Below, piece by piece: positions 1 to 60,599 of a stretch of 64,000 nt of DNA (its first letter is position 1; every line of letters starts with the position of its first letter). This stretch comes from Undaria pinnatifida (lineage: Eukaryota > Sar > Phaeophyceae > Laminariales > Alariaceae). Where the stretch lies: positions 10,982,205 to 11,046,204 of the forward strand of contig JABAKD010000005.1 in assembly GCA_012845835.1 (NCBI GenBank). The letters run 5' to 3'. The notes under the pieces were generated by a model. The model did not search any database. It saw only the letters and a program-made list of their open reading frames with translations, and was not told the DNA's origin. Position numbers and translations under genes: made by a program.

Positions 1-2204
1 ACATCCTCCTACTACTGCTAGTCGACATTCCCGCCTTCCCCCCCCCCCCTCCCGGCCTATCACCCGCCGCAGATCACCCTTGCGTTCATGTTTTTTTTCC
101 TCAACTCGCGTGCTTTGGCGCACATGCCCCGTACTCGTACTTGACATTTGGGGAATGTAAGGTTAAAGGGGGGGACACAGAGTGCCCCCTGCAGGTCTGC
201 CAATTGAGCAGGTCCCCGGAGAGTACACACTTTCTTTTCCTTCGTAGCGACGTTGCTTTATTCGATTCCACCGGAGCCCCGGATAGCTTCTGAGATCGGA
301 GGCACGTGTCTCCGATCTATTTCTTGACTTTCCCGAATATAAAACGCTAACCTTATCATACGAAACCCATCCAATTGATCTCAATTTCGGATAATTATTG
401 GACTTTCGAGGTCGTATCTTAACACTAGCCCACCCTGATGAGTCGCAGATGCAGAAATATGGGAGATTCGGGGGAACTCCGGTTCTACGAACTAGACCAT
501 GAGTCGAAGATGCGGCTCCTCAAAGCCCACTCCCACACCTCTGACGGTCTGCCTATGGAGCCAGGAACACGCGAAGAAAAGCAGTTGAAAGAAATGCAGA
601 CCCTACAACAAGGCAAAAGTCACCCATCAAAAACCTGCCGCGTGCCGCCGGTGTGGCGGGGGGGGGGAGAAAAGGCTCTAGAACCTGCCGCATATCGCCG
701 GTGAGGCGGGGGGGGCAGGAAAGGCTCTGCGGCAAACCAATCACATAAAGGGTACGATGGCGAGGCGAGCCCTCGTCGATATGGAGGAGAACACAGGCGC
801 CAACACAAGGAATAAGTCATGCGAAAAACCTCCCGCGGGCCAGCGGCATGGCGGGGGGTTAGACGAGGAAACGACAAATACCCGGGATGGAAGGTGGCAA
901 CACCTACAGCCCTGCGAGGGGGGGAAAATGTATGGTCGAAAAAAAAAAAAGTAGAGCAAATACAACACACAAGATTAAAGATGACACACAGACCCGTACA
1001 TAGCCCTGTACCACGTGACGCGCGAACAGGGTACGCTGGTCGCCCCCCGGCTTTGGGCTGAGGAGGGCGTCGGCAGGGCGAAATTGAACAATCAATGACG
1101 AAAAAGCGACAGCCCTGCGCCTCAGATAGCGGCGTTTTCCCCGAACCCTGACCCGGCACTGAGCAGGGGGTTCGGCAGGACAGAAAGAAAAAATAATGGA
1201 AGAACCGCCCCAAAACCCGACGAAGACCCTCGGGACATACGCCAACCTTATCATACGAAACCCATCAAAATGATCTCAAAATCGGATAATTACACGCCTT
1301 TCGAGGCCGTATCTTAACAAAAACATACAGCAGTACCCCGCACTCGTATCCACACGGTGGTTTACACCTGTGTGTGTTGCCTTCACATGAAACCGATATT
1401 TCTACCCAACGACATCAGTGCGCACAGCAGTGTTCGTGTTGATTCTCCATCCTAGAGACATGAAAAAAAAATGTGGCTACAGACTGTGAGCCAGAGTAAA
1501 CCAAACAGCCGCAATTCATCAAGGCAAAGCAAGTTAAATAATGCTAGCGTACTGGTACGAGAACACAACAAGACAAGCCAGACCATACAAAACGAGAAAA
1601 AAAAAAAAGATGAAAAAAACGACCTGCAGATAAAAAATTCGGGGCGCTGTTCAGCGTAAATGCTCATTAGTACTGGCGTACTTGAACTACTGCTGTACCC
1701 AAGAAGAGGTATTTCCTGTGGGATATATATGTCGTTTGTCTCAATTTCAAACCCGTCCGAATTGCGTGAAAAACCATCCAACACTAATTTCAAGTATTAA
1801 TAGTGTGCCCCCTCAAAACATGGGTGCAGCTCCAAAGAGGATAATATTACAAGTGTCTTCGAGTTGTATATCACGAATCGATCTCATCCTGCGCTGCTAC
1901 ATACGTCCACCCACCCTTTGATATCTCCCAAAAATGATGTATCCGGTCCTCAAGTTGCCATCCACTTGCTCGACTCTTGTATATCTCTCCTATTTTAGTC
2001 TATGCCTCAAAATGTTCATTACTCCTGTTGGTCCCCAAGTTGGCTTGTCAGCAATGTCTTGCCCCATCCTCACGTTGCGCACATTTTGCTGTTTTTTTTT
2101 GCATGCCCCATAGGTCGGACTAACTAGGTCCTCAAATCGGCTGTCTTTTTTTCTATTTTGCGTCTCTTCACCCTTTTTTTCTTGTCTTGATCACGCCCGA
2201 CCAG
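1..2204 (+). other. Tail of upstream WDR35 intron with direct repeats and a minisatellite
   Basis: No exon recognised. About 78 bp at 346-425 recurs at 1242-1319 (both hold CTTATCATACGAAACCCATC and end CGTATCTTAACA), about 895 bp apart. A G-rich unit of roughly 51 bp (CCTGCCGCR...CGCCGGTG...GGCGGGGGG) occurs at about 630 and 681, with a poorer copy near 827. From about 1940 the sequence holds degenerate copies of the start of exon 1. Confidence 0.6.
1943..2140 (+). pseudogene. Degenerate copies of the exon 1 acceptor/start
   Basis: Exon 1 starts GTCCTCAAGTTG. Similar strings occur upstream at 1945 (GGTCCTCAAGTTG), 2030 (GGTCCCCAAGTTG), 2066 (ATCCTCACGTTG) and 2126 (GGTCCTCAAATCG), separated by pyrimidine-rich sequence. 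I read these as decayed duplicates of the 3' splice site plus the first codons. The match is short, so this is the weakest of the exon-copy cases. Confidence 0.45.
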
Positions 2205-2342
2205 GTCCTCAAGTTGGAATCTGTGGGGGTTGCAGGGAAAGAGGCCAACACGCCGGGCGCGGAGGGCGGAAAAGGCGGCGCGGCGGCTAGCGGCTCCAAC
2301 CTCAGCATGAACCAGACACTCGAGGGGCACGAAGGCTCTGTG
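2205..2342 (+). CDS. WDR35: WDR35 exon 1 (in-window numbering)
   Basis: Enters and leaves in phase 0: acceptor ccag|GTC, donor GTG|gtaagt. It encodes 46 residues, from VLKLE through a Gly/Ala-rich linker to [15 protein letters not shown], the start of an N-terminal WD repeat. The conserved VLKLE and [11 protein letters not shown] segments fix the frame. Confidence 0.93.
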
Positions 2343-5300: not shown

Positions 5301-8300
5301 ACTTCCAAGTAGGTACCATGCTACGGTGTAAAAGTGGCACGTTATGGGCCAAATGTTTTTTTCGCGCAGACGGGCTGCTCAACTGACGAAACTAATGTCC
5401 ATTTTTTTTTTTCTGATCCCTTTTTGGGGGATTTCCACAATATATTTTTTGTTGCGCACCAGCGCATGGGATGGTTTGTCAGATTCGAGCTTCCGATATT
5501 TTCTCAAAGTTTACTTGCTGTGTGAGGCATGGAGCTTCGCAGTGAGAAGCCTCAGGAGAAGCGAGGTGTGCCTCTATCGTGACGTCGTCGGTTGTTGTTC
5601 CCAAAATTTTGGCTCACTTCTAACGGCGGTAGCAACAAGCAAGGTTAAGGCATTGGAGAAGGTTAAGGGATTTGATGATAATGTTGCGCAACGTTGAGTA
5701 GACCACCGATCCCCTGTGGATCATCTAGATCTGCCAGGAACGATCTTTATGGTTTATCTAGCTCATGCGGCCGGGTGGGAACCGTACGATCTGCAATCGA
5801 TCCAGCACATTTTTTCCTAGGTTAGATCGGCATCCAATAAGTACAGATCCTGCTTAACGTCTACTATACTCGATCTTGATCACGAGGTGTTCTGGGCGTG
5901 TAATGTTGTTTGGGGCCCCTGCGATCACCGAGGTTTCAACCATGCAGCGTTGATCACATGAATACGCTGCAGAAAGACAAACAAGCGTCTCCCCCCGTCA
6001 ACGGCAACGCGGTCTGCCCCATCCATGGTATTTAATGCCCGGCCTTCGTGTCTGTCCCGCAAATACCGGCCGCCTCGAGGATGGGATTTCTTTGTAGCTA
6101 AAGTATCCCGACTTAGTATCAGTTCATCAGTTTTCTGGCGTTGTATCAGAGGTGTGCGAATGTACCAATGTTTCGCGCGTGCAGACAACATACAACGAAG
6201 CGCGACCCGGTATGCCGAGAATGAGTCAGTGAAGCGAGCAACGGGAAGGGGAAGAGGAACTGACAACCGATAAAATAGACAACAGATTACGGGCACATTT
6301 CCAATTCTGACATTTTAACGAGAACGCGAACCTGCATGCTGGAAGATTTTCAATGGACGACCAACGGGCAGGAGGAGATATACACAATCTCCGCGGACGG
6401 AGAGATATGTCGTCAAAGTCGATAAACGTCGCCAGGAATGTTTCGCCCGTTCATTCCTTTACCAAAGCTGTTTCCCGGCCTTCTTAGTGTCACGAAACTT
6501 CCGCGCGCTTGCAATCAATCTGCAAAACGCAACAAAAGACAGACAAAACATCAGCGTAATCATAGTCCTACGAAAACGCAAACCTGCACGTCGCAAATGG
6601 TTCAGTGGGCGAAAAAACGTCGGAGGAGCTTGCCAATCGGTAAAGAAACAGATAATTGAGTACGAGCACGTACACTGTTTCTAAAATTCTGACACACCTG
6701 GTACAACGAAACGGTGAACCTAAACCTGGGCGAAAAATTGTTTCAGTGGACGAGTAACGGGCAGAAGATCTGCATCATTTACGCGGACGGAGCGGTGATC
6801 GTGGGCTCGGTGGACGGCAACAGACTGTGGGGAAAGGAGCTGGAGATGGGGTTGCAGAACGTGGAATGGTCGCCCGATGGTCGAAGGTTAGCGCACAAGT
6901 CGATCAAAATCTTATCATATCACACTCGTGCCATGATAAGATTGGTAGTCTTTGGCCAAGCCCTCATCGACATTCTTTCTTCCTCCATCGTCTCGTTCGC
7001 AAGCGCCCAACGTTTGGCAAACCCTCATCCTTATTCGGTGCTCTCCGTGAATTATATATTACAAACCCTGCATATTTTGTTCCCTGGACGGCGCCTTATC
7101 ACGTCGCAAAAACTCGCCGTAGAGGATGGGTGGATGGCTATCACCCTCTTGAGAAAGTGCGTACAAAAAAATGGAGGAGAGGTAGGTTCCAGGATATTGA
7201 CCGCCATGTCTATATACCATGCGCCCGCTCAAGGATTTCGCTTGATGACGACGCCAAACGAGTCGAAAAACCTTGGTTGTTTCGGTGCTCTCCCGCGCGT
7301 ATCACGCGTAGGATATTGTTTGTGACGACGGCCGGAGAGGTACTCGTCTACGACGCGCAGGGGAAGCGAGTTAAGGCGATGACCCTCCCAGAGGGGGCAA
7401 GAGTGTCCTCCGGCGACGGTGCAGACGCCCACTTGTCATCCCCCCGCGACGGAAAGTACGACGATTCCGACGACGAGGACAAGCAAGGGGAGGGAGAAAA
7501 GGACGGGGGGAAAGGGCGGGTTATTTCTCTGGACTGGTACGACGGTGCGGAGGGTCTGATGCACCCGCAGGTGCCGACTCTTTGCCTCGCACTGGAAGGA
7601 GGCACCGTGCAGACGAGCAGGGGGGTTGACGACGCCAACCCGATCGTGATAAACGCGCACATGACTATAAGACAGGTGAGGCGAGGGACCATACGATCGA
7701 GTAGGCGCGCGCTGCGATGGGGGGTGGCGCTTTTTTTCGGCAAAGTTTTCCCCACTGGCGAGGGTTCCGAACCGAGGAGCTTAACCCCTATAGAACCCCG
7801 AAATGATTCCCTATATTTATTTCAAGTAATTTCCCCCCGAAAATGGGTTTCCAGCCGTAAAGGCGTTACTATCCAATATCGTGGTGACACCGGTTTGTAT
7901 TTGCCAGCTCACTATTATTCGTAGTAATCGAGGCCATGGCACTCGTCCGGTGGCTGGCTTCTCAGATTGAGGCTTCTGAGGGTAGACAGGGAGAGCTCTC
8001 CTCAGGAGAGAAGCACCAGAAAGGAATGGCGCACCCCTGCTGCTAGAGTGCATCTGAGGCCGGCTCGGTATTCTCGTGCCCCTGCAGGCGTTTCGCGTGC
8101 CAACAGCCCCAAGAGGATGCCCTCGTCTTTTTCGTGTCCCCTTTTTCGCCGATGCCCCTACGTGCAATACTGCCTCCGGCGCATAAAAAAACGCCGGCTG
8201 TGACGGTGCCGTGTTTCTGCGGCAATGGCAACGATGCACGTGGTGTGTGGTTCGCGTTGGCACAGGGGCATTTTGCTTTCTACCACATTCATATGCACGT

Positions 8301-17300: not shown

Positions 17301-20300
17301 CACCTGAGGAGGCTAACCGCACTAAAGAGGCCATATATTTTTTTTGGCCCAAAACATGCAACCCCTACCGCACTATACCGCACTATAGAGGGATGCTTCA
17401 TATAAGGTAGTCAAAGGGCTGATGGCACTGGCGCGTAGTGGAGGACCCAAGGTTATAAGAATGATGGCCACAAAAGTAGTGCCCTCTCTATGTGACCGGG
17501 AGAGTCTCAAAGCGAAAACACTCTACTGACCCAGTTGGCGGTCCCTAGATATCGCACACAGGCTTGATTGAGAACGAAACCCGTTGCCACGACCCACTGT
17601 TTGCTTTCTTCAGGCGCACGCTGATCCTCGTGAACGTAGTTGGATGTATATGTTGGTGATGGCGCTCTCTCGATTAGACCAAGAGCTCAGGAAAAACAAC
17701 AGCATTCTAATGGTTCAGCTGACCGTCCCTGGATATCCCAAACCAGCTTGATTGAGAACGAAAACCCCCTGTCGCGCCATCAAACACCAGCAAAAACCAG
17801 CTTGATTGAGAACGACACCCCTTGTCGCCCCCCGTGGTTTTCCTTCAGACACGCGCTGATCCTGGTCAACTCAATTGGCTCCCCTGTCGAAGAACGCCTG
17901 CTTCCGCATAACATTTTCCCTCTGTACATGGTAATGTCGGGCGCGCACGTGGTCGTCGCGGGAGAGGCAGCTGCCTACGTGTGGCAGTATAAAAACCAGG
18001 CAAGTGGGCGCGCGCTACGGCAATCAAAATGAAGGGTGGAGTGAGGGCGACAGGCGGATTAGATCGATGCTTCGGAAGCAGACACTGAAGGGAGCTAGAC
18101 GGACGGAGTTAGGCTTCGTGATTGCTGTCTTGTACCCAGTTTAAAACCCTCCGGTTTAAGGCCGCAGAAGATATAAGACAGATGAATCAGGTATTCACTA
18201 GGCAAAATCCACGGTGGGGGGAGAGTTACCGCCTTGTTCACGAGGGGTTGTTCATCGCTCCCCCGAGTGACTCTGCAACTCAATGAAAACAGAATACTCT
18301 GATCGTTTTTTTTAGGCGCGGCGCAGCCAACTATTCCGGAGCGGTTTCATGTCGCAAAAAGCAAAAAAACAATAGCTAGAAAACTTGTTCCTGCCTTTTT
18401 TCACTAGGGTTTTGTTCACCACCTCCTCGAGTGACTCTGTTAACTCAATGAAAACAAGAGGTTCTAATCGTTTTTTTTTGGCGCGGCGTAGCTAAGTGTT
18501 CCAGAGCGGTTTCATGTCGCAAAACAAAGAGGTGCTCTAATCGTTTTTTTTTGGCGCGGCGTGGCTAAGTTTTCCGAAGCGGTTTAATGTCGCAAACAAA
18601 AAAAAAAACAGCTAGAAAACTTGAAGACCACAAAGAAATAGGGAGTACACTCGTGCGAGTGACCCCGAGCCACAGCATAAAGGGGGTCCTAAAAAAGACC
18701 CCCCTCCTATACCCACGGCCCGGAAAAAAAAACGTATGGGAGCTGTATTGCCGTAGTACCAGATAAGATCATAAGGTTGAGGTAGAGATAAGGCCACGTA
18801 AAATTGGCTTGTCACGGGGTGGTCAAAAAGTGGGTATACCACTGCAACGAGAAAGAAAAACGTGGAGTGCAGCAAGGTAGAGCGGGCGGCATGCCACGAT
18901 AACGAGAAAAGCAGGGTGGAGCGAAGGGCAGCGGTTGGATTTTTTCAAAGTCCACCCGGAAGCACAGAAGGTGGCTTAGGCTTTTGCTGCATATCTTTCT
19001 TCTTTTTGTTTTGTTGCAGGTGGATTGGATTGGTGCTAGGCCGGAAGTAGGCTCAGAGGGCAGTTGGACGTCGTACATAAGGTTTCTCTTTTCGGGTTAT
19101 CCCTTGGATTTGTTATTCAATTTTGGGAATGTTCAGAATCGTTCTAAGGTAGCCCCCCCAACTTTTCTATGACGAAATCGCCGGTTTCGAAACCAGCTCC
19201 TCCCGGTCGTATCTCCTGAAGAACGGTGTCCCTCGACACCCTCCCCGACGTCATCGTTCGATCGTCTTTCCCAACGAGAAAAAGTTTGAAGCCGTTTTTT
19301 TTACAGCATCCTTCCTCGTGTCGAGCAGCCACGAAACGTTCGCTACAGAAAATCGCTGGTTTTGGGGCGGGGCTATCGTAGAATCATTCTCCATACGTGG
19401 TCGACGTTGGACGTCATTCTACACGTTGCCGGATGCCAATAAGTGGTAACGTCAGGGGGCAATCTGACCTTTCTGAGGCTCTTTCTTCCCGTAAATATAT
19501 GCCCGACCCAACCGCTGGGTTTGGGGGGGACACTAAGAGCGCAGCCTGACGAACAGCCCCAATGGGCTAGGTACACACCTGGCAACGAATAAGTTTGGTT
19601 TCCTGGGTGGCATGCGGTGTCGTCGGCTTCATCTGTGAGAGTTGAAACGTATGCGCCAGTATGGGCCTGGCACGTACGTAGGCTGACTTCCGATTTCATT
19701 TTTTACGTTGTTGGCGGATGCATGACTTGCTTCAGCTATGAGATATACTTGTTCAGCTTTTGGTTTGTTTTATTTTCTCCCTTGGGCCGTTCTTCCACCC
19801 CAGAGTGACTGGAGCCTGTCCTGTGACCACGGACCTGACTATGCGAGTTACCGTGGGAACAACAACATGTTTCAGACTGTAACACAAAATTGTCGTTTCG
19901 ACGTCTTGGGGTGGTGCGGTCGTTACTTGATCATCATCATACCCCCGGACCCAGCGATGCGGTAGGGGCGGTTATGTTGTTTTTTTGGGGGGCATTTGCT
20001 CTGCGGTCGCTCGGGGTCACTCGCGCGAGTGACCCCTTGTTCCTTTTCGCGATATTAATCTTTCGTGCTGCTTCAATTTTGCACCCATGACTTCGCAATG
20101 GGATGGCAAAAAGCTCGCCTGCGCGCCAAACAAACCCCGCCTATAACTGATGCTACAATACCCCCCCCCCCCCCAAAACAAAACATTGGTGTTATTTAAC
20201 GAATATTTCATGGCTGCTCGACACGAGGAAGGATGATGTAAAAAAATGAATTTTCAGATATTTTCTTGTTTGCAAAGGACTATCGAACGATGACGTCGGG

Positions 20301-23300: not shown

Positions 23301-26300
23301 GCACGTCCCATCGACGCACGCGGCAGTATCGGTGCACCCCTAGCCCTGTTTTCTGATGCTGAGGCACCCCTTATTGTGCGGTAGGGGTTGCAGTTGTTGA
23401 ACCAAACGTTTGTGACCGGTTGACCCCCTCAAGTGCGGAACTATCCATTAAGAGTATGGCAACTTTTTACAAGTATCTTTTGTTTCGTGACTTGAGGCAC
23501 AGAAAATAATGGCCGTGTTTTTTTGCGCGAACGAATATTGCCTTACGCATAAAGTCATGTTTTCGGGTGAGATATTGAGCTGCTCCTCATGTTTATTGCG
23601 GCTCAGAAAACTTCTGCCGCATGCACCTCCTAGCGTGGAGATGGCTCTGGATCCTCGCCAGAGGAGCGCTATGCCCCACCGTGACACCGATGTTGAACAG
23701 AAAACCGAAAAACCGAAATTTCAACCCTGGGACACTAACTCGAGACCTGTCATAAGTACACAAAAAAAAATCAGGTCGCCCCAAAAAACAAACAAGGATG
23801 GCATTTCCGACGATTTTGGAATTAACGCATTTACAACTAGACACCCGTTTTTGGGGACTAGAGTACTTGGATTTAGTATAGGGAGGGGTTTGGGGGCTAT
23901 AAAGGGGTTTGGGGTGTAGGAGTTCACGTCATTCAGGAAAGATAAATGGCTCCCAAAAAAAGGTACTACACCTGTACCTCTATCCTACGTATTTCTTACA
24001 AACACTTCTAAACACGCCAGCTGCGAGTTCGATAGATTTTAAGGGCCGATACTCATCTTTGAAAGCGGCGTGGTACACCGGCCACTCGTTGGTCCTACGC
24101 ATGTTGCACGCGTCCATTCGTCCGTTCCCCCCCCTCGTCTTCCCCTTTCCCACTGCAAAGGCTGAGGGTGACACCTCCAAAGGGATGGCATCCGTCGACC
24201 CAGGGCCCTGGGCTGGCGTGGAGAGGAGGGATGCGTGGGATGCTGTATGGGCAACCGACGACCCCAACCAGGTGAAGCAAAGCCAAGAGAACAAAATGGA
24301 AGGCAGTCTGCGAATTTTACGGTGAAATGATGGATATATATATATATATATATATGTATGTGCAGCGGCGGGTATTTTAGAACACTATCTTTCAATTTCG
24401 TCAGCTGTGAGTTCCATGAATTTACGGGTCGATACTAATCTTCGGATTTGTCGTACGTAAGTGCGGGAAGCCGATGATCCTTGCGGGGTGAAAACCGTCC
24501 ATTGATTTCTTCCAAGGTCAGGCACTGCCGTGATGTGCCGGTTCTAGCGCAGTACCCCTTCGTTTCGAGGCACGCGTTTTTTTTAACGCTAACCCTGACC
24601 CTATCCCTAACCCCCAAGCACACCAAACCCGTTCATTTCGAGGGCGGGACCAAAAGCTACAGGAGGCGGGTCATGTTTGGCACACTTTGTTTAGCAATGG
24701 TTCGGGGTCACTCGCGCGAGCGACCCCCGCGTTCCATGGCGACGTCAACCCCTTTATTTACAACTGGAAACCCGTTTTTGGGGACAAAATTACTTGGATT
24801 TAGTATAAGGAGGGGTTCGGGGGCTCTAAAGGCATTAAGCTCTTGTGTTGTTTTTATATTATGATATAGCTCAGTGGGTGCAATAGTAAGCTACGCTGCG
24901 CCGAAAAAATCGCCCGACGTACTTTGATCAGAGGGGTACAGGGTCAATTGTGCGCGTGACTCAAAGTCGGCAGCGAAAAAGGGGGCTTGCCATAATACAA
25001 TAATGCCGTAGCTTTGGTCGCGGGTAGTGTGATAACGCTAACCCTAAGCCCAACTCAACCCTACCCCCCCCCCCCCCCCCAGAAAAAACACACAAACCTT
25101 GGTATAAAGTGGTGTAGCCTGTTTAAGACCACTCGGTTGAAGACCACCCGGTTTAAAACGCTTCGGGAGGTAGTACCAGGTATAATCGGCTTGTCACGAA
25201 AAAAAAGATACCTGGAATCAGTATGGGATCAATTTTGCAGTAGTGCAATATGAGGCCATGGTACTGTTGAGATCACCACCACAAACGGGTTTGTCACGTG
25301 GCGGTATTAAAGCGGGTACAGTGTTCAACGCAAGTCGACCAGGGAAAACAATGCTGAATTCTTCTCGCGATAACAATGAAGGCGTTGTTATACCGTAGTG
25401 GCGAGGGGAGAGGAAGGCCCGCTATGTAACCCCGGACCCGAGCTACTACTGGGAGGGAGCGCGAGGTTAGCGCGAGAATAATAGATGGAGTAAAAAAAAA
25501 GGAATAAAGTGTCGATTTAAAGTTCCTGTCGTATCGTATGGTAATGTCTCTAAATTCACCCCCCCCAAAACAAATTACATTCGCATCCTTTCCGATGTTA
25601 CCACTACCACCTCGGCAGCTAGCGACCATGGAAAAGGCGAAAACGGCGATATTTTCAACAACGGGGAAGCTGATTTCTGTACTGCTGTCGAACATGCCGA
25701 GCAGGCGACACCATGTCGATCACAAAATTTTCCATCATTTTTCCTCCACCGTTGAATTCGCTTCCTTGTGTTACTATTGTCGCGATAAAAACGAAGGTGC
25801 GCACCCTCGTAGTGGGGAGGGGGGTAAAATCCTGCTTCGTGACGCCGGATCTGATTCACGCCTAGGGAGGGACGAGGAGAATAAAACTTCGAAGATAACA
25901 TACAACAAGTAGATGCTATGGGTAAGCATATATATATGTGTATACATAATCTTGAATCTCACAGCTGTAGCGTTGTATTTGTATATTTTTTATTTTCGTG
26001 TATACTGAGGGCACCCCTTTCCAACACAATCGGTACCACCTCGGCAGTTAGCGGCGATGGAAAAGACGAAGCTGGTTATTTTCAACAGCGGGGAAGCTGA
26101 GGAGCCGGTGCCGTGCTCGGGGCACCTATGCCGATTGCAGGGGCTGGAGGCGAGGCACGTCTTGGTGGACGCTGTCATGGCGGCCCCGGAAAGTCCCGAC
26201 AGGTGTGACATGTGCTGCCATACACGCAATATTGCGTTGTCTGTTCGTGAGAGGCAATAAATAAACAGTTTCGGGCTGAGCAATCAATCATATGTACAGG

Positions 26301-36605: not shown

Positions 36606-39600
36606 CTCACACTGGTGAGTTTTGGAACGGATTGATTCTTTTCAGACTTAAATTATCAGGGATGTGTACGGAGTGAGAACATATCCGCGGAGCGGTTTTT
36701 ACGGAGCGGTTCGATCAAATCGCACCGCTCCGTGAGATTTGTAGCGGCCGATATCCGCTCCGTGACAATCTGTGACTTTTCCCACAAGCGGATATCCGCT
36801 CCGTAGCACACTAAAAAAATCCGCTCCGATCCGTGACATTTTCAAGAGCGGGTATCCGATCCGCAATAATCCGTGAGTTTCCCAACACGCGGATATCCGC
36901 TCCGCTCCGTGACAAAAAAAAAAAAAAAACCCGCTCCGCTTCGTACGCATTATAGCTGCGCGGTTAAAACCGTGAACAGCGGTTTTTCTACGGAGCGGTT
37001 GGGGCCACTCCGTGGGTAATCCGTACCTACTCCGTAGCATATCTCACGGATCAAACCGCCGAAAGTAACGCTTTTTCCACGGTCGAAATTGTTCACAAAG
37101 CTGGATAATCTACCGTAGAACGCCATGATCTCACAGGGTATTCCTTGTATGGCGCCCATAGCTACGGCATCCACCCCCCGCCCCGCGTAAACAACGTAAT
37201 ATGAACAGGTGGTCATTTTGTTGTCTTTCACTGTTGGTTTAGTTGGTTTCACGTTTCAATTGTTTTTCAACCTTTTTCATGGTTGAGAGCCGAGTGAGAC
37301 GCTGCTGCTGTTGCGCGTCTCCTGCCCCGGCCCCCCGTCACTCTGTGCTTTATGATCAGCAAATACATGTTTACGTAGTCAATGGTCAATATTCTTCTTG
37401 ATTTTGTTTGTTTTGACGATGGATGCAACGTTTACATGTGCACTTTTCTCCTTTTGTGCTGGGCTTTTGGCAGCACAAGGTTGCGCAAACGAAAAAAAAA
37501 ATCCATGTTATCCGCCATTAAAACATATCCATTCGTACCTTTTGACATTTACTCGCGGATATCGGTATCATTTTCACGGTTAACCGTATCATCGCAACGG
37601 ATAACTGCTACGGTGCACCGTAGGGAAATGCCGTAGTTTTGTGCGGTTTGCTCGACGGGATGAGATAAACCGGTCGGTGAGAAAAACCGTGCGACGGATA
37701 TCCGCTCCGCAATAACCCGTGACATTTGTAGCTGCGGATATCCGCTCCGTGAAGATCCGTGACTTTCCCCGCAAGCGGATATCCCCTCCGCCCCGCCCCG
37801 GAACACACTCGAAAGAATCCACTCCGCTCCGTGTCATATTCAAGGGCGGATATCCGCTCCGAACTAATCCGCGAAATTTGTAGGGGCCGATATCCGCTCC
37901 GCAATAATCCGTGATATTTGTAGCGGCGGATATCCGCTCCGCGCGATTTTAAAATAAAAAACCGATCCGCGGAGCGGTTCTTACTCCGTACACATCCCTG
38001 ATAAATTTAACTAATACTCTCGGAATTTAGCGGTATAGCGGCGTTCCTCATTCCCAGTCTTGCGGGTGAGAACTTTGAAATTTCGTTTCGTATAGGGTAT
38101 TTTTTGCGGTAGTACATGGGGAACTGTTGTTCACCTGCAGCGCTGGGAATGACAAACACCGCCAAACGTTTGAGAGGCACAGTTCAGAATATGAAAAAAA
38201 CAAAACAAATCCAGCCCGAAACTCGCTATTTTCTGGTGGCCATATCTTAGTCTGTGGTCATAGAAGACGCCTTTTACGATAGAGGTATCCATTTTTGGCT
38301 TTGTGGCTGTACTCTTTTCGAAATGAAGGGGCTTCTTAGCCAAAAATCAGAGGAAAAGAAAAAAAAATCATACCTAGGCCATGGTTTTGTTGGCCGGGTT
38401 GCACTTTTCTTTTCTCTCCAAATCGACGCACTTTCATCTAAAGAGGCGTTTCTGTCAACAGCGACACGCTGCAGTAAACGCAAAAAAAAAAATTGGCAAG
38501 CTTTTGGCAACCTTCTTAATTCCCTTAGTTTCTTTTCGATCTTCGTCAGATCTCGAATAGAAAATCAAAGTTGCGAACAGCAAGCAGTAACTTTATTTTT
38601 ATTAAAAATTTGTCAACGAAGGACAAAACATGTATCGTCCAAGAACAAAACCTTTTGGTAAATAAACGTTGATCTTTTGGCAAGTCCAAATCTACAGGGC
38701 TTTTGCGCGGGTCGGATCAGGAGGTTTAAACGACGTCGGGTGCTGAGTCGGGTCGGATCAGGAGGTATTCGAAAGCTCACGGGGCTGGTCGGGCTGGGTC
38801 AGGAGTTTTTCGAATCTCACGGGTCGGGTCGGGTCGGGTCGGGTCGGGTCGGGTCGGGTCACCCTACCCGCGAGAAATGGCCCGACCCGTGAAAAGCCAG
38901 GCAGATTTCCGCAAGCTTGCCAAAATGTTGGTCGTTTCGTGGGATCAGGAGGTTTAAAACAACATCGAGGGTCGAAGTCGGATCAGGTCAGGAGGTGTTC
39001 GAAATCTCACATGTTGGGTCGGGTCAGGCCGGGTCAGGAGTTGTTCAAATTTTTCTTGTTGGGTCGGGTCGGGTCACCCTGATCCGATCCGACCCGCGAG
39101 CAAAGATCTGGCCCGTGAAAAGCAAAAGCCACGCAACGTTCATAAACTTGCCAAATATACGCGTACGTCGTTAGAGATTGGACCTTAGCCGCTCCACACG
39201 TTAGGGTTTTGCAAATGGGAAGACTTACTAACTCCGGTCTCAGGGAAGTTGGTGGACCGTTCTCCCCCACGGATCGAACGATATAGTAAGTCCATCTTGA
39301 AACCATTTTCGAAAAATCGAAACCAACTCAACGTTGTCCCCCACGCATGCATCCAACGAGCTCGCCAATCTTGGAACCATGTTCGATTTTCCGAAGCTAA
39401 TTCCAACCGCGTTTTTTCACTTGCGGGGCTGGAAATGACAAAACACCGCTGATTTTTTTTTCGGAGTCAATTTCGTTCAAAATCTTAAAAAGAAACAGTA
39501 TCAAGTACGGATCTCGCTATTTTCTCATCGCCGTCACTTATTACCAGTCTGTTTTCACAAAACGGGAAACACCAAATAATCTATCCTCAAAGGTCCATTT

Positions 39601-42600
39601 TTGACGGCACGTTGGAAATAGCAAAACCAAAAATGGCAGTTATTCAACAACTGTTCGTAAAGTTTTCCCATTTTAAATCTGGTACAGCAAAAAAATATCA
39701 ATATATATATAAAAAAATTTTTATTCATAAACTGGTCTACGAAGAACAAACTATGTCCAAGAAAAACACGTTTTTGTCAAGAGCAAACAAATCTTGGCCA
39801 TTTCGGCAAGTCCGAATTTCTTTACACTGGCCAAATATTTTTTATAAGGAACGGCCTTAACCTCTTAAAACCGTTTTTTTTTCACGAATGACAATGCAGA
39901 TTAGAAGACTACGCCGGTCTCAGAGAGCTGCTGGACGTTCTCCCCCACGGATCAAACGAGCTTGCCAACCTCGGAACTATGTTCGAATCTGTTGGATTGG
40001 GGGAAGATGCGGTGCGGGCGCTGCTGAGGCTAGGGAATCCTAAGGGGGCAATCGACGCCTGCGTCCGACTTAATCATTGGGGAAGGTATGAACAGATCGG
40101 AGGTGTTTTTGATCGCTTTTCATGACTGGTGTCTTTGTTGGGCAGACAGATCAGACAGGTACTGCGTGTGTTGGATTGTATCTTTGGTGAACGTTCTACG
40201 GGTCGTGGTTCCGATTCCTTTGGGAAGCATGCACTTCCGTAGATCGGACAAATCAGGTCAGATCCCTACTACTTGCTGACGATCTGTGCCCGTCAGGGCA
40301 GGCAGATCCCTGGTTTAGACGATCCACATGACCTATAGTGTATCATGTTATCAGAATGATCTGCTATACTGCAGTACCAGGAAAATGCTTTCTGAGTTGG
40401 ATCTGCACCGCACAGATCTCACACCGCATACAATTATGACAGATGTAGGACATATATGATTTAGAGGATCTAGATGACCTAGATCGTGGTCCGCCCGATA
40501 TGTATATTATAAGACATTATGAATGTGATGAACACGCCGTCGACAAAAGTTACGTTATCGGTGAATCTGTTTTTTTCCCCGGCAAGGTTCTTGACTTGAG
40601 GAGCTCTACGTATGCCTAACCCTAAAACCAACTTGAGCGCAAATGAAGTTGGTTTCCGATGAACAAACCCGTGTCCCCAGGCGTTAAAAAGAGCAACACA
40701 TTTTTGCAACACAAGAAAAGGCATTCCTGAGATTTTCTGTCAAGGAGCCCCCTTGTCATTTCAAAAATGTTTTCGGCCAAAAGAAAGTGTGCTTCCTCTA
40801 AATTATGGTAGCACGCGCCCGCCCGCAGTTGAATTTCTTGGTGCTCGACTATTTTTCTTTTCAGGCGCATACTATGATAGGGTTAAGCATTTAGATTTTG
40901 TTTAAAAGCATTCCGAACCGACGGGGCTGTAAGGCACATTTTACACAATATTCAACCCTTTTTCGAACTGTAAGGCATATTTTACACTATTTCCAAGTAG
41001 TTTGTCGCCATGTCGGGAGTGCAGCGCTATATCTTCTGACCGACGGAGCTTTTCAACCTTTCTTCGAACTGCGAAACATATTGTTCACTTATTCTAAGTC
41101 GTTTGTCGGCATGTCGAGAGTCCAATGCTCAATGGCCTTTTTTTGAAGAGGAATTACTCCACTCCTGCCAACACATGCCACGTAATATAGAAGGTGGACT
41201 CTTTCATTTTCCAAGTCTTCTCACATGGGGACTCTACACCCCAACAACACAAGAAAAACGGATTTCAAGCAAAATGAAATTGAAGTCCGACGAATAACCA
41301 GTCCCATGGCCAACGTGTTGAAAAACAAATGCTAGGGTTTTTGAACCAAGAAAGACATCCGGACTATTCGACCAAAGCTACGGTAGGGGGGTGGGTCCCT
41401 TTATAAGGGACCCGTTCTTGCAGTGGCTCGGGGTCACTCTCGCGAGTGACCCTCCTGTTCCTTGCGGTCATAAGCTTTCGTGCTGTTTAAATTTTGCGAT
41501 ATGAATCCTTAGAGGGATATGGTTAGCTAGGTTGCGCCAAAACTAACCACCTAACGTCTTCCGGTCAGTGAGGTACAGAGTCACTCATGCGAGTATGATA
41601 GTATGATAGCATGATAGTACCATAGTATGATATGATATGATAGTGAACACCAGGTAGTGAAAAATGGGGGCGTATTAACATCCCCCCTACCGTAGCCTTG
41701 CTCAATTTTTGGGTTCAGCAGACCCCGTCGTTCAGAAAAAAACAGGTGATCCTAAGAGAGTGCTACGTATCTCTATCGTAGCGCTTGTCTGCCGAAGCAC
41801 AACTTGTATCTACGTACGGTATTCTACATTTCATTTTCTGTACCTAGGCCATGGAACTGATTTCTCTTCGGGTTGACGCGTGCTACGACAGAGGTAGCAC
41901 TTTTCGTGTGAAATGGTTTCTGAATGGCGGGGCTCTTTAACCCAAAATCGTCGGTAACACGCCATTTGTTTTTCACGATTCTCGTCGTGCACTTAGGTAT
42001 CAGTTTTATTTTTCTCTAAATCAGTTTTTCGGAGGAACGTGTCTTGAGCTCCCAAATTGAGGGACCTCAGAAAAAAAAGTGGCGAACCTCTATCGTAGCA
42101 CGCGTCGATTGCGCTTTCATCATTTTTTTTATAGAGCTCTTCAAGCGAGGAGCGTCGGGAAAATGCTTGTTCCTCCCCTCCGTAGCGTGAATCCCTGACG
42201 AAAGTCTCATGATTCCAACAAAGCCCATGCTCGACGTAACAACATTTTGTTCTCCACTTTCGATTTCAGGGCCGTGGACCTTGCGGAGAAGCACGACTTC
42301 CCGCAAATCGAGGCGCTGATTGCGCGGCACACGAGCCAGCTCCTACAGAAAGGCGACCCTCTTCAGGCCGTCGAGGTCTACCGAATGGCGGGCAAGGCGA
42401 CGGACGCCGCCCTCCTATTGGCCAAACTAGCGGAGGATGCGGGTGAGCAAAAAAAAACGGGACCGCATTTTTATTTTCACAAAAAACCACTAAAAATACA
42501 CGTCAGCCGTGATATCGCGGATTTCGTCAAGAAACGTCTTTGAAAGCTTGTTTGTGATACTTCACTCCTCTCTCTCGTGTTCTACGGGATGTGTGTGCCT

Positions 42601-45600: not shown

Positions 45601-48600
45601 TTTCTGAACGATGGGGCTCCTTAACCCAAAATCGTCGGAAATTGGCGATTTTTTTTGCATGGTTCCCCTGGTTTACCTAGGTGATGGTTTTCTTATATTC
45701 GGTAGCAGTTTTGTTTTTTCTCCAAGTCAGTTTTTGGGGAGAGCTCTTCAAACTCCCAAATTGAGGAACCTCAGAAAAAACAATGGTCGGTGCACCTCTA
45801 TCGTAGCACGCGTCTCCGGGGCCATCTGCACGTTGAATGACCCTTACCCCGACAGCTAGTGCTTAGGGGAGCAAAAGGAGCATCGTTGGGTGCACGTTTC
45901 TTATCACGTGCTTACCGGGTGGGCACTTTAAGGAGAAAAAATATAGGTCTTTACGCCTGACACGGTACAAGTAGCACTTTTGGCATTTTTTTTTTTGTTA
46001 TCGGCGGGTCTTTGCCCAAAATCGTCGGATTGCCGTTCCTGTTTCCCATCTTGTTTTTGTTGGTTTTTGCATCTAAGTCGTGGGTTAGGTCGTCCGGGTT
46101 GGTTGCACTTTCGGTTTTCTCCAAATAATTCTTCGGGTGGGTCGTTCTACGGTAGCCCCCCTCAACTTTTCTTTAATGAAATCGCCGGGTTTTGAAACCA
46201 GCTCCTGACCGTGTCTCCTGAACTACGGTGCCTCTTGCCACCCCGGCGTAATCGTTCGATAGTCCTTTGAAAACAAGAAAATATATGAAGATATTTTTTT
46301 CATAGTATCCTTCCTCGTGTCGAACAGCCATGAGACGTTCGTTACAGAAAATCGCTTTTTTTTGGGGGGGGGAGGGGGGGGGGAGGGGTATCGTAGCATC
46401 AGTCGGGTGAGTGACTAGAGCTCCTCGAGTAACCACCCTCGTCAGAAGGGAAAAAATGGTGCACTTTTTCCACGAGCATGCGTCTGGAAGCCGTGTGACG
46501 ACTGCAGTATTGGCGCGGGCTGCGATGGGGGGGTCGCTGGTTTTGGCCAAGTCTCGTTGGCGGGGTTCCTCAGCCTGAAGATCTACGATATCAAAAGTTC
46601 CCTCGTGTATGTTTGCGCAGTATGGGTTCTGCGCCCGATTCGCGCTGCGATAGAGGTAGCCGTCTTCGATTGCTTCGTTGCTGAACGACCGGGCTCTTAA
46701 TCTATTAATAAAATCGTCGAAACACGCGTCAGGGGATGTATGTGTCCGATTTTTTGAACGGGAAATAGGCGCAAGGCACACACACCTCTGCCCCAGCACA
46801 GACGAATGCTACGGTAGAGATGTGCAGTAGTGTGTGCACCATTCTCTTTCTGAGACTCCTAACCTATTTGGGGAGTCTTTTTTTACGTCGTACACATCTC
46901 CCAAAAAACTAGTTTTTGTGGGAAAATCAAAGCTCTTCCTGATGACGGTGACCGTGACAATGACGAGGACGACGACGATGATTGATTGTGCCGTGGTCTA
47001 CCTAGGTACGTATGCAAGACCAAGTTTTGTTTTTTTGGAAATACAATGCAGATACGACGATTTTTGGTTAAGGAGTGAATCCCGTCATTCAGAACATGTT
47101 GCAGCCCTACAAGTGCTGCCTCATTCTATCGCAGCATACGTCCACGATGAGACTTGTCATGTTGCTGGCTCTCCCCATTCGTAGATGAATCACGAGACCA
47201 CAATTGTTGCATTGTTAGGTCGCTTTCTACCTGGTGACCAAAACGGGATAGTGGGGCGTTCTGGTCGTGGCCGCAGCTTCTGACCGTGAACATTGCATTG
47301 ATTACTCCTTTCACAAAAACGTCCGAAAAACTCCCTATTTTTGGTCTAATTCGAATTGTTTTCCCCCTACTTTTTATCCTGTTCGGATTTCAGGACGTTG
47401 TGTTTTGGGGCTGCTAAACGTATTTTACTTGCTTAGCAGTCTAGATATACGGTTACAAGTTCATGTTAAGGTTCCAAGTGTTTTGGTTTTTCGACTGCCA
47501 TTACGAGGGAACGCAGCAAACAAGACCAAGTGGGATTACAAAAAACAGTGGAATGCGTAGTTTTTTGTGTATATCGTAGGTACGTGGTACCGATTACTAT
47601 GTTCCTCCACAGCAAACGCTTCACCTCGCTTCGCCTTCGCGCTACGATGTATTGACTAGTTAGTCTAGTTCCAAGACCCTGTTCTGGTTCCGTGCCTTTT
47701 GTTTTTCGGCTGATGAACGTATCTTGACTATAACAACAGTCTATTAATAGCAACAACAGTCCTACGTATAACAGCAGCGCATAGCTCTTTTCGGCCTGTA
47801 CCCGTGTTTGTGTGGGAGACAAGAAAGTCTTGAATTTTTGTGAAGTTGAGGTGTGCCGGTTCAAAACGGTTGCGTAATTGGTCTCTATATTTCGTTCCCT
47901 CGTCGGCAAAAAGCTTAGCAGCGCGGGGACAGAGATTCGGAGGCATACCACTACCTATGATAGCCCAGCGCCACCTGTACAATAGAAACATTTTGCCAGG
48001 AAGCGCATATCTGTTCCGCAATTTCGACAACGTTTTTGCTATTGATCGGGACATTTTAGCTACAAGTATATATCGGATTTTTTGTGAAGTTCAGTTGTGC
48101 CGGTTCAAAACGGTTACATAATCGATCCTATATATTTCACTCAATCGTTGGAACAGGTGTTTAGCAGCACGACGAGAGATATGCGGAGACCTACCACTAC
48201 CTGTGATAGCCTAGCGCCACTTGTACATTGCAAAAACTCGACCAGGCAGCGTATCTTTGTTCCGAAATCTTGACAACGTTTTTGTTGCTGATCGGGAGAT
48301 TTTGGTGGTCTTTCTACTGCTGTAGCTTCAACCAGTGGGGTGCGTGCTACGGTAGATGTATCAGGTTTTGAGCCACGACGCGTGCTACCATAGAGGTGCG
48401 CCTCTTTTTTTTTTTCTGAGGTTCCGGGAGCTTAAGACCTACATCCCAAAAACTCATTTGGATAAGAATCAATTCTGCTACCGGATGAAACATCCCACGG
48501 CCTAGGTAAAGAACGAGATTCACGCGAAAAAAAAAGGCCTAATTTCCGACGATTTTGGGTTAAGGAGTGTCTTAAGTCATTCAGAAATCATTTCAGACGA

Positions 48601-51600
48601 AAAGTGCTACTTCTGTCGCAGCACGGGTCCCAAACCATCTTCGGTACGACAGAGTCGTTCTACGGTAGCCCCCCCAACTTTTCTTGACGAAATCTTCGGT
48701 TTTGAAACCCGCTCTCGGCCATGTCTGCTGGAATGCGGTGCCCCTTGCCACCCCGACGTCATCGTTTGATCGTCCTTTGCAAGCCAAAAAATACATGAAG
48801 ATTTTTTTCTTTTCAGACCATCCTTCCTCGCGTCGAGCAGCCATTGGAAACGTTTTCGATAATATAGAAAATCGCTGGTTTTGGGGGGAGGGGCTATCGT
48901 AGAATCAGCCGACGGGCGTTCTCACCTGTTAAACTGCCAACTAGGATTTTGGCACCCTGTTCGTCCGTTCCTACTTTATTTCTTGCACACCCCACCTCAG
49001 TCCGCATGGGATTGCCCATCGACTGCAAGCGAATAGTGCTCGTCCAAGAGACAGGGGAGTCATCACAACCTAGGGGTGCAGCAGCTTCCAAGAATTTTCT
49101 GAGCTCCTAACATGAGGAGCTCAATCAAAACTTCCCCCGAAGCATTGCTTCGAAGGCATTCGTTCGCGTAACCGGGACAACATTGCTATGCGCTGGTCCA
49201 AAAACAACCATGCTCGTGGAGTTACTTGATCGAATGACTAACCGATGGTTCCGCGCTTGAGGAGCTCACAAAAAACAAATTTGGCTCAAAAGCGTGGTAC
49301 CCCTACGAACCGTGGGATGCCCCCGTTCCCAAACCGGCAGAGTGCAGCGTTAAGCTTCGGTCGAACCCCCGTCGGTCTGTACCTGCGGTTTAGGCTACAA
49401 ACGTATAAGAAATGTTGTGGAATACTTTTTACGGCAGGCCCCAAAAGGGTCAAAGAAGGGTTAAGACAACCAGTATGCCATCCAATCGTCGCAACAGGTG
49501 CTCGACAGTGCGTGGAGAGGGGCGGAAGCGTACCACTACTACATGTTAGCGCAGCGCCAGCTGTACAACGGAAACACCGAGCAGGCGGTGCGAACGGCTA
49601 TAAGGTAAAATTAGCCCCCCCCCCCCCCCGACATCAGGGCCCGACGACTCGTGTGGTGTTTTAGAAGTAGAGGTCCAGTCAGTTGGTTGGCTTTTACCCC
49701 GCCACCTAGCTAAGAACCAAGCCGTGATGTCCAGCGGACTTAGTCCGCTTCGGAGTGAAGCACGGCACGTGCAACGAGAGGGGTATCGCTTTTCGGCTGA
49801 AATGGTTCCTGAATGACTGGGACTCCTTAACCCAACCTCATCGGAAATTATTTCGCACGATTCTCGTTTTAAACGTAGGCCATGGATTCTTCATTCGCGA
49901 TAAAGCAGGTTCTATTTTTTCTTCTAAATCAGTTATTGAGTTACGAAGGACATTGTCTTAACCTCCTCCTGCAGTGAGGAGTAGTGTTAAGGAAAAAACG
50001 TGGCGCACCTCTTTCGTAGCACGCGTCGCACAGAGCCATTCGCGCGAATGGCTCAAAAGAGGTAGTGAAAATTGGGCTTTTTGGGATACTCCTCGTACCG
50101 TGATGATTGTGGTAGCCCCGTTACCATGAATATGACCCCCCGTACCGGGACATTTGGGGTCCCCCCCCGTGCCGTAGCTTTGCTCCAATGCCTCTGCATG
50201 GCTGGCGTTAGCACTTTTCGTCCTGGGTGGGTTTAAGCTGGAAGCGGGCGGACCCTGTCTACTACTTCGTGCATTGGTTCTCCGTCTTCCAACCCTTGAC
50301 CTTTGGAATCCCTCCTACACGATGCTATCGCCGACATTCCCACTCGAAACAGATCGTAGGCTGATTTAGGTCATGCCTCGTGTTCAAAAGACAAATCCAC
50401 GAAGAAACGAAGCTATCGCGAGCTAAATACAGGAACGGAATGCGATAGGCTGAGCGGTTGCTTGTCGTGTTTCGTCCTTGAAATGCGTTAGAGGGACAGC
50501 CTTACCACATATTCGGCTCTAGGGTTGAGATTCACTGTGTACAACGCGAACATAGCGTACTCTACCCTTAGTGTTAGCCCCGGCCCAAGTCAACCCATGC
50601 TTAGGGCTACGTCTATTAACCACCTACATAGTCTGCGTCAGCGACAACGTCGACTACGTGGAAAACGTCTACTGATCACTAATTGACTGAACGACAACTT
50701 TTTGTGCGTCGTGCTTTTGGCCCAAGGTGTGCCGAGTTCGAGGACATCCTCTCTCCTTGGGACGTGTATTGCTTGGTTGCCCTTACAGCGTACCACAGCG
50801 GCTACATGGGGGTGTGCAGTAGGTAAGCACGACGATCTTGAGCCATGCTGCCTGGCAGGGTATGTTAGTGTGTTTTTTCACGGGTTTCCACGGAACGCTC
50901 CATGGGAACCCACCGTATACTGTACCGGGTCCTGTGGGGGCTCGTGGGACGCCTCTTTGCACATCCTTTGGAACAGCGAGGGACCTCATGGGAAGTTCCG
51001 CGGGCCCCCAGTCAAGAACGCCATGTTGCCAAATTACGGTTTCCCGCGTCTGCCTTTCCGTTGATCTAGATGCTTTTGGGCACAAAGAGTGGGCGATGAT
51101 GGCACGTGAGTATGCAAGTCACTCTAGCGCTGATGTTTTTTTTTTTTGTGAAAATTAGGAGATGCTGACGTTTGGGGTTGGAAGTAGCTTTGCCCTAGTT
51201 GAAGTTTATCCATCGCTTTCGTCGCCCTTTCTCCGGGGTTTCCATACTAGCGTGTTTATTTGGCAACCTATCCGGCCCCGGTTGATGTTCACGCTGACGC
51301 TCATCCGCCGCATTTATTCCCCTTTCCCAGGGTTTATCTCGGCAGGGCGTTCATGAATCGATTATCCTATCCCAAGTGTTGTCTATTCACGTTTCGCCCC
51401 CACCTCCCGGAGCGTCCTTAGAAAGATGTTTCGAAGGTGATCGTCCTCGCCCCTTTGAAGTTCATTCACCTCTCTCGTTCGTTTCTCTCACTCCGGGGTT
51501 TCGCTAAATATGGCGTTTCGAAGCTGATAATCTTTCCACAGTTGATGTTCATCTACGTTATTCGCCCCCCCCCGCCTAGGTTTCCGTTTATTAGGCGTTG

Positions 51601-58368: not shown

Positions 58369-58634
58369 AGCCTCCAAATTTCAGATCTGTTTCTTGCCAA
58401 AAAGTGCTACGTACCTCTATCGTACCACTCAAAAATTGCGCGAAAACTGTAGTGCAATTCATGTCGGATGTGAGAACATATTCTCGGTCGCTCCTTCTTA
58501 GCAAAACAACCACTAAGGTCCAAGGGTACGGTTCTACGGTAGGATTTTAGTACTGCACTAGTCACTGCTAGTCACTTTTTAGGGCGCCATTTTGCAGCGT
58601 CTCGAAGCGCTACTCGTGTGAGCGACTACCGGTA

Positions 58635-58838
58635 CACTTCTTGTGTGTGTTTTATCTGTTCCGAACTATCTACCGCCGCCGCCGAAGATTTACATGCATA
58701 AGGCTGCCCCAGCAAAACTAGTTACCTGGTACTGCAGTGTGCGTGTTTTTATCTGTTTCGAACTATCCACCGCCGCCGCCAAAGATTTACATTCATATGG
58801 CTGCCCCAACAAAGTTATTACCTGGTACTGCAGTGCGC
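58635..58838. repeat. ~101-bp tandem duplication
   Basis: Two units, each with TTTTATCTGTTYCGAACTATC, ACCGCCGCCGCC, AAGATTTACAT and TACCTGGTACTGCAGTG. Confidence 0.9.
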
Positions 58839-58992
58839 TTGACTCTGTTTGGGGTGAGGTTCACCGAACCCCTTGCGCGAGTCAGTTGAGGTCGGCGGAG
58901 AAGGTGGGGGTATAGTCTAGATCTATAGTACCGTAGCCCCCGCCTCGGAGAGAACGGTTCGGGCTTCAAGGTCCAATCTCTATTACGTGTCG

Positions 58993-59226
58993 TTCTACGA
59001 TCGCTGACTATTCTTCAACGAAATCGCCGGTTTTTGAAACCAACTCCCGACCGTACCTCCTGGAATACAGTCCCCCGTTGCCATCCCGACGTCATCGTTC
59101 GATATTCCGTTGCAAACAAGAAATACGTGAAGACGTTTTTTCATGGCATCTTTCCTCGTGTCGAGAGCAGCCATGAAAACGCTCGATAAAGAAAATCGCT
59201 GGTTTCGGGGCGGGGCTATCGAAAAA
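58993..59226 (+). mobile_element. MITE family A, copy 5
   Basis: Left end diverged (TTCTACGATCGCTGAC), right GGGGCTATCGAAAAATTAG. The interior is standard, including GAAATCGCCGGTTTTTGAAA. Confidence 0.78.
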
Positions 59227-59254
59227 TTAGTCATTTGGTACCTTTAGGTTGTTT

Positions 59255-60235
59255 TTCGGAAGACGTCGACGCCGTAGTCGTACAGCGCAGCATATGTCCG
59301 GAGCCACAGACTACCGTGCATCTCCCCGCGTTCGTACGAGCCCCATTCAGCAGTTCCTCAGGTGCCGTGTAGGTGCACCGCCCTTGGATTGGCTTATGGA
59401 TCCCGTTCACCTTAACCTCACCAGGTGCGCCACGGCATGTATGACAGTGCACGACGAAATTCGCAGTTTCTGGTCGCGTCCTGGTCGCGTCCTCGTCGCG
59501 TCTCTACAGCAGCAAGGCGTCTTCGGTCTGATCAAAGGCTTGGTATGGGGGGGGGGGTATCGCCCTCTTCACCGCTGGATTTGAGCCGGCCGCACGAGTG
59601 GCTCTGTAGCCTCACTGATGAAAAGCATTTCCGACGATTCGCTTGGCGCAGCGTAGCTACGAACCCATTCCACTGCGGAATCACACCACAGAGAAAAATA
59701 TTAAACAGCAAACTCGAAAGCTAAGACCCGCGAAAGGGACAGGGGGTCCACTCGCGCGAATGACCCCGAGCCACCGAAAACAAAATCCCCCCAAATTGAG
59801 CCACCCATGGTAGCCTCGGTCGTTCGCTACCGGACGAGATTGAACTCATAGTCATACAACAGCCATCATTCCATCACCTCCATTCTGCATCTGAGCCCTC
59901 CCACGGTAGTGTACCTGTGCAGCATCAGTCTCCGAGGTCCTCACACATGAGGAGCTCAACATCTCATACGGAAAGGATTTCGAAAGCATCCGTTCTCGCA
60001 CAACCCGACCTAGCTTCTTCTATGCCTTACTATAGTCCTAAAACAAAAGAGATACTCGCGAAATTGCTTCACTAACCGGTCTTACCTCACATGAGGAGCA
60101 CAATTGGCCAGGGACGCTGTGGCGCAAAAAAGTTGGCGCAAAATCTGCAATCCCTATACGGTGGGATGAGTTATCTACCGCGCGGCTACGGCCCGCTGCC
60201 GAACGAGGGCCACACCATAGTCGTACAACATCCAC
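59255..60235 (-). pseudogene. Fossil copies of the minus-strand terminal exon
   Basis: Three segments resemble 60270-60385. 59255-59360 keeps CCGTAGTCGTACAGCGCAGC and CAGCAGTTCCTCAGGTGC. 59828-59870 and 60190-60235 keep CTGCCGAACGAGGGCCACAC-like and CATAGTCGTACAACATCC parts. In gene orientation they lie downstream of the exon. Confidence 0.65.
59897..60168 (+). mobile_element. MITE family D, copy 9
   Basis: CTCCCACGGTAGTGTACCTG at the left; CCCTATACGGTGGGATGAG at the right; GAAAGCATCCGTTCTCGC inside. Confidence 0.7.
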
Positions 60236-60239
60236 CCCG

Positions 60240-60599
60240 TCACTGCCCCCATTCCGCATCTAGCGCGTCTTTGGTCTGCTGCCGGAACAGAGCAAGGCCG
60301 TAGTCGTAGAGCAGCATGTCCGCGGCCAGAACGGTGTGCAGCTCCACGTTGGTATGTGCCCAAGCCAGCAGTTCCTCCCGCACCTTGGACCGGGTGCCTG
60401 CGTTTACCACCATTTCGGCATTCCAATCGCGCACTGGGCTTCTCACTCTTGCGTTGAACAAGCGCATTGACAGCTCCCATTCTGTGACAGCATGCGGCGA
60501 ACAAGGTGGAACGAGGGGAGTGAGGCCATAATGGATGGTTGACAGCTGGTACCCCGCGTCAAGATAGGACATAGACGTAACGGGTGCGCGGGGGACGGG
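60240..60599 (-). CDS. Probable terminal exon, unidentified gene (C-terminal 119 residues)
   Basis: An open frame ending TGA at 60240. It opens after a possible acceptor aatag (60602-60600), or it could start at the ATG at 60572. The product has natural composition and well-spaced motifs (STIHYGLTPLVPP, VTEWELSMRLFNARVR, ADMLLYDYGLALFRQQ), unlike shadow frames around it. The last part is loosely reminiscent of Golgi sulfotransferase C-termini, but no diagnostic motif is visible, so I assign no function. The gene would run toward WDR35 (convergent). A family A MITE ends ~25 bp upstream of the suggested acceptor. Earlier exons were not found in 60874-64000. Confidence 0.6.
   Translation of the reverse strand, partial: PVPRAPVTSMSYLDAGYQLSTIHYGLTPLVPPCSPHAVTEWELSMRLFNARVRSPVRDWNAEMVVNAGTRSKVREELLAWAHTNVELHTVLAADMLLYDYGLALFRQQTKDALDAEWGQ

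Follow-up and report, generated by a model that had tools for sequence, protein, structure and literature searches.

Partial exon copies in adjoining introns of WDR35 and dynein heavy chain genes of a kelp: probable relics of small tandem duplications across splice sites

The window, by which we mean the whole stretch of 64,000 nucleotides that was analysed, carries a gene identified by Pfam as WDR35/IFT121 on its plus strand and the terminal coding exon of a convergent gene on its minus strand (60240..60599; 119 aa, no Pfam match). A query stitched together from the reading frames of the window led to the matching gene model P0001 (1244 aa, label jgi/Undpi1), which the window encodes unchanged from residue 40 onward; the source kelp is most likely Undaria pinnatifida. 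We mapped 27 exons of WDR35, all of whose introns are of the GT-AG or GC-AG type, with zero mismatches at the joints. The first coding exon was not found within the first 2,400 bases, and exon n in our numbering therefore corresponds to exon n-1 of the initial annotation.

The mean length of the WDR35 introns is 1,845 bp; mean values of 1,203 bp for the kelp Saccharina japonica versus 704 bp for Ectocarpus are given in a published account (PMC6507550). WDR35 introns also contain arrays of the pentamer GGGTC/GACCC with up to 110 copies (4731-4881, 16138-16687, 28993-29498, 44109-44473 and 44513-44647), and short TTAGGG-type runs of 4-6 units are found in a WDR35 intron at 32272-32612, inside a larger local duplication. 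In addition, a dispersed repeat of ~230 bp, present in both orientations and ~71-83% alike in pairwise comparisons, occurs within introns of WDR35 and in the surroundings of the convergent gene (19134-19386, 20166-20373, 46142-46371, 48650-48907, 59007-59227 and 60641-60870).

Every mapped WDR35 exon was scored on both strands against 28 non-exon stretches, namely the 26 introns, the sequence preceding exon 2 and 2.2 kb past the last exon. With exon sequence alone, 7 of the 27 exons match an adjoining intron in direct orientation at scores of 36-59: exons 4, 15, 17, 19, 20 and 24 in their own upstream intron (36-59), and exon 27 in its own downstream intron (52). The controls stayed well apart from these values, with a maximum of 28 for non-adjacent stretches (1,404 tests) and of 25 for inverted matches in adjoining stretches (54 tests). 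Exons 10 and 26 qualify once their flanks are added, exon 10 being the weakest case with a score of just 25 for its exon part alone, which brings the exons with partial same-strand copies in an adjoining intron to 9 of the 27 mapped. For the terminal exon of the convergent gene, the strict score of the copy is 46, compared with a best random score of 26 in 526 comparisons. The initial annotation had claimed such copies for ten WDR35 exons and for the convergent terminal exon; 10 of these 11 items hold. The exception is its exon 1 (exon 2 here, 2205-2342), whose supposed copy we rejected as a chance similarity, consisting of a 12-base match that was equalled or beaten in 32 of 546 random comparisons.

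The WDR35 exons and their copies all lie on the plus strand. Upstream of exon 15 (26048..26202), the copy at 25605..25673 comprises the 3' splice site and the first 53 nt of the exon (86%) with the AG kept; the copy of exon 17 (32029..32163) at 31072..31120 likewise comprises the 3' splice site and the first 42 nt (86%), again with the AG kept. The copy of exon 10 (17849..17999) at 17605..17643, which includes the 3' splice site with its AG and the first 30 nt, is weak alone and is accompanied by an intronic part of the same duplication at 17519..17582, whose source is 17703-17766. For exon 4 (6747..6886), the last 6 nt of the intron and the first 46 nt of the exon recur at 6348..6402 with the AG changed to AA, and the same change is present in the copy of exon 20 (39900..40085) at 39210..39281, which holds the last 5 nt of the intron and the first 60 nt of the exon; a second copy of exon 20 at 39331..39386 covers nt 36-87. 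The copy of exon 19 (36420..36571) at 36054..36107 corresponds to the first 54 nt (80%), and no intron part was seen. Exon 24 (49498..49604) has one copy covering nt 26-79 (47938..47990) and a second one that includes 15 nt of intron with the AG kept (48142..48247), both of which sit inside a 246-bp tandem duplication (47835-48303). The boundary of exon 26 (51997..52057) recurs at 51679..51773 (79 nt of intron and 16 nt of exon, 78%, AG changed to AT) and at 51520..51599 (74 nt of intron and 6 nt of exon, 70%), with a further copy of the intron part of this duplication unit at 51607..51641; two or more copies each are thus seen for exons 20, 24 and 26. Exon 27 (53096..53215) is the source of a downstream copy, as nt 65-105 from its 3' part recur in the downstream intron at 53304..53344, and the 3' part of the convergent terminal exon recurs on the minus strand at 59257..59376, downstream in the direction of that gene.

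The same pattern as at WDR35 was found at six dynein heavy chain loci. We analysed 200 kb spanning two dynein heavy chain genes, chosen by a Pfam family search that was blind to the finding, and placed 113 coding pieces in them by tblastn with brown-algal and other proteins. From the 125 tblastn pieces, 12 had been set aside by hand beforehand as likely relics because of protein overlap and lower score; two of these (C13 11993 and 21005) rely on the numbering of a distant protein and could be true exons, and two of the pieces that were kept (C13 13588-13839 and 75616-76095) seem to be over-extended, taking in intron or repeat sequence. At a score of at least 36, direct copies were present upstream of 28 and downstream of 21 of the 113 pieces (at least one copy for 42 of 113), compared with 0 of 226 in inverted orientation; at a looser score of 30 there was 1 inverted match in 226 versus 57 direct ones. 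Non-adjacent introns of the two genes yielded 6 matches in 12,444 comparisons, five of which are supplied by the over-extended C13 pieces; the piece at 75616-76095 also gives 2 of the 49 direct copies. The sole non-adjacent match outside these pieces scores 74 and is inverted, pairing a dynein coding piece with a copy ~35 kb away (G000:C26:13325001-13425000, 93732-93863 versus 58932-59117). Parts of four more dynein loci (24 pieces, which are HMM match limits and not exons) gave direct copies at 5 of 48 sides, inverted copies at 0 of 48 and non-adjacent matches in 0 of 244 comparisons, and one of the four, L035, has no copy. A different arrangement was observed at G000:C21:7013838-7016297, and alike at 6989116-6991575, where dynein AAA_6-like matches recur every 906 bp within a single long reading frame of 1109 aa. 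The intron-rich dynein genes look different, and this is maybe a case of internal duplications of an intron-poor gene.

Pooled over all loci, which cover 298.5 kb in total and within which each exon was compared with its own locus, a direct copy at a score of at least 36 is present at 61 of 328 exon sides, compared with 0 of 328 in inverted orientation and 6 of 14,092 in non-adjacent introns of the same locus (Fisher's test, 4e-20 for direct versus inverted and 2e-95 for direct versus non-adjacent). The initial observation of partial exon copies in neighbouring introns is borne out by these counts. The position of the copies is equally regular: 33 of 34 upstream copies are centred in the first half of the exon and 22 of 22 downstream copies in the second half, and 4 of 5 copies at the four further dynein loci fit the same geometry. 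Across the WDR35 and dynein loci, 59 of 61 copies thus follow the arrangement described at the outset, with 5' parts lying upstream and 3' parts downstream; the two misses are an upstream copy centred on the exon middle and one from the four further loci located just past the middle. The distance between copy and source has a median of 380 bp and is mostly 0.1-1.3 kb. Among the best matches at the WDR35 and dynein loci, none covers a whole exon piece, which speaks against whole-exon duplication (mutually exclusive exons), where a copy should span the entire exon with both splice sites.

How far similarity continues beyond the copied exon part was analysed for the pairs used for the geometry, 49 from dynein and 7 from the window, with the five from the four further loci outside this extension test. 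Anchored extension exceeded the 95th percentile of the null on the intron side in 30 of 56 pairs and on the exon-interior side in 3 of 55. A first flank-homology test was passed by 20 of 56 pairs, and of the 34 pairs with similarity up to at most 8 nt from the exon end, 23 extend into the intron. About half of the pairs thus show no intron-flank homology of the kind that a simple one-step tandem model predicts, and in a test of head-to-tail adjacency, 15 of 54 pairs had a tile identity more than 0.05 above random. In simulations with 13% divergence per branch, intact tile or flank homology was detected in all trials; detection fell below 97% only with 20-160 bp indels added, and the fastest of these alone approach the data, at 53-73%. 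According to this model, fast intron turnover with indels of 20-160 bp would reconcile the missing flanks, and some copies, a minority, may have arisen differently.

Mismatches between copies and exons amount to 13.5, 12.8 and 25.4% at codon positions 1, 2 and 3 (49 dynein and 11 window copies), the codon-position ratio for dynein being 1.90 (95% interval 1.62-2.25) and the largest divergence of any copy at positions 1 and 2 being 0.23. A freely changing copy compared with an exon that changes at silent sites only would be expected to give approximately 1:1:2, which is the pattern seen. Among the dynein indels, 49 of 58 shift the reading frame, i.e. their length is not a multiple of 3. Splice dinucleotides are kept in 13 of 18 copied AG and in 10 of 14 copied GT; the input comprised 58 pairs (the 56 above plus exons 10 and 26), 32 of which reach the dinucleotide, with dynein exon edges being approximate. 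By our own arithmetic, ~76% of copied dinucleotides should survive at 13% decay per site, and the 32 pairs reaching the dinucleotide give no sign of selection to destroy copied splice sites. Taken together, the codon pattern, the frameshifts and a survival of dinucleotides close to the expected ~76% suggest that the relics are neutral and that spare splice sites persist without being purged at a visible rate.

Local duplication extends beyond exons. Young head-to-tail duplications are frequent, and on this point the initial annotation is supported: arrays of 2-3 adjacent copies with units of 34-315 bp number 29 in 264 kb, compared with 0 in one shuffled sequence; nearly all of them are non-coding, and only 1 of the 29 overlaps a coding piece. 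Intron windows of 130 bp have a copy within 2 kb in direct orientation in 19.4% and in inverted orientation in 6.1% of cases at WDR35 (n=330), and in 15.7% and 3.5%, respectively, at the dynein loci (n=369). Exons exceed these direct rates (7/27 versus 19.4% for WDR35 and 42/113 versus 15.7% for dynein), with the rates being imperfectly matched, as exons were compared with whole adjoining introns and windows with 2 kb on each side. Exons are probably not special in this respect, and a conserved partner probably keeps the events visible for longer. A duplication process targeted at exons was rejected as unneeded, since introns carry local copies too.

We therefore regard it as quite probable (roughly 0.83) that the copies were left by small tandem duplications that spanned splice sites, as part of a general local duplication. 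This is the origin that the initial annotation had proposed, and it agrees with the exclusively direct orientation at a score of at least 36, with the geometry and with homology that runs on into the intron in about half of the pairs and rarely extends beyond the break inside the exon. Small tandem duplications would arise widely in non-coding DNA of the kelp. A duplication reaching from an intron into the following exon would place a spare acceptor and the first part of the exon upstream, and the copy joined to the remainder of the exon would stay intact and spliced; a duplication from within an exon into the following intron would leave a spare 3' part and donor downstream. As the protein would not be changed, such duplications could persist. 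The spare copy would then decay at the neutral rate, with selection holding the exon, and old events at exons should accordingly stay recognizable for longer than purely intronic ones. Each pair would represent one head-to-tail event, and duplication may be ongoing today and lengthening introns.

An alternative source of short exon pieces in introns is templated insertion, in which break repair copies them into the intron without duplicating the intron flank. The shortness of the copies and the missing flank homology in about half of the pairs fit such a process. However, it predicts inverted copies, copies of exon middles and copies on either side, whereas none of the 328 sides has an inverted copy and 59 of 61 copies show the tandem geometry; we consider it unlikely. 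A mobile repeat carrying exon sequence is a good deal less probable still. The window does contain dispersed repeats on both strands, and 4 of the 6 non-adjacent matches come from a tblastn piece that apparently overlaps a dispersed repeat, but within each tested locus (298.5 kb in total) exons match almost solely their own adjoining introns.

The survival of AG and GT dinucleotides might also be taken to indicate that copies are retained for a function, as alternative exon ends or splicing decoys. This survival is, however, about what decay of 13% per site would leave, many indels shift the frame, and mismatches are about equally frequent at codon positions 1 and 2, so that functional retention seems about as improbable as a mobile repeat. 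Chance or low-complexity similarity accounts for the rejected copy of exon 2; for the set as a whole it is refuted by the inverted and non-adjacent controls and is the least credible explanation of all. With tandem duplication across splice sites as the preferred origin, the initial proposal that introns grow in this way retains its tandem basis, but exons need not be special, because intron windows also carry local direct copies. Introns holding a relic from the given exon side are longer (median 1,758 versus 1,293 bp, p 0.004), although longer introns also offer more room for matches. Rather tentatively, introns of this kelp lineage might owe much of their growth to tandem duplications, both those crossing exon boundaries and those within introns, with about one base duplicated for each base substituted as a very rough figure; this rate would follow from ~0.19 visible events per exon side (61/328) over ~0.2 neutral substitutions per site, a horizon based on the largest per-copy divergence of 0.23.

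Related processes are known from other systems. In the Rogers model, introns are gained when an AGGT-containing exon segment is tandemly duplicated, as reported for Drosophila (PMC2891723) and for a potato RdRp (PMC4974935). There too, tandem duplication creates spare splice sites and leaves the peptide unchanged, but a new intron results, whereas in the kelp an existing intron would absorb the spare copy and none is gained: at WDR35, the exons on either side of the copy-bearing introns jointly encode the protein of a relative unchanged, which is not the configuration of that model. For human genes, 4,027 intronic targets of exon duplication were reported (PMC9013439), and according to the Exonize study (PMC12343006) genes with partial, inter-boundary or intronic events outnumber those with full-exon events, and degenerate exons can be flagged. 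Both works resemble ours in that exon sequence is copied within its own gene, introns included, and intronic and partial matches as such are therefore already known; unlike here, both are mainly concerned with duplicate exons that are full or expressed. Internal gene duplication has been called ubiquitous (Gao and Lynch 2009, as cited in PMC4974935), and we likewise see it as a general force on gene structure, with the present work following its fate as a decayed intronic relic. The one-edge geometry, the neutral decay by codon position and the use of copies as dated probes of intron growth do not appear in the consulted parts of PMC9013439 and PMC12343006 or in the literature matches listed, and no title among the matches listed from the open-licence literature treats partial, boundary-crossing exon relics as a route of intron growth. 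In the available text of the giant-kelp genome paper (PMC10498591), the words 'intron' and 'tandem' are absent. Exonic nucleotides with a within-gene homologue at an identity of at least 80% make up ~2% in human, 0.08% in fly and 0.06% in worm (PMC9013439). In the kelp, copies cover 12.1% of dynein coding nucleotides at 80%, a value from two genes and obtained by a different method, so that the difference from human, fly and worm is a hint at most of a lineage trait.

The relics retain splice sites and coding similarity, which calls for caution in gene finding: at least four of them surfaced as apparent exons in the protein search (C13 26502 and 42483; C26 27029 and 27269). Long introns are usually ascribed to transposons. 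Relics of tandem duplication would represent a second source, with traces at roughly a fifth of the exon sides in the sampled genes, and the conserved exon provides a built-in control for dating each event. If introns of this lineage do grow largely by such duplication, exons would serve as built-in clocks, and both the age and the rate of intron growth would be legible in a single genome.
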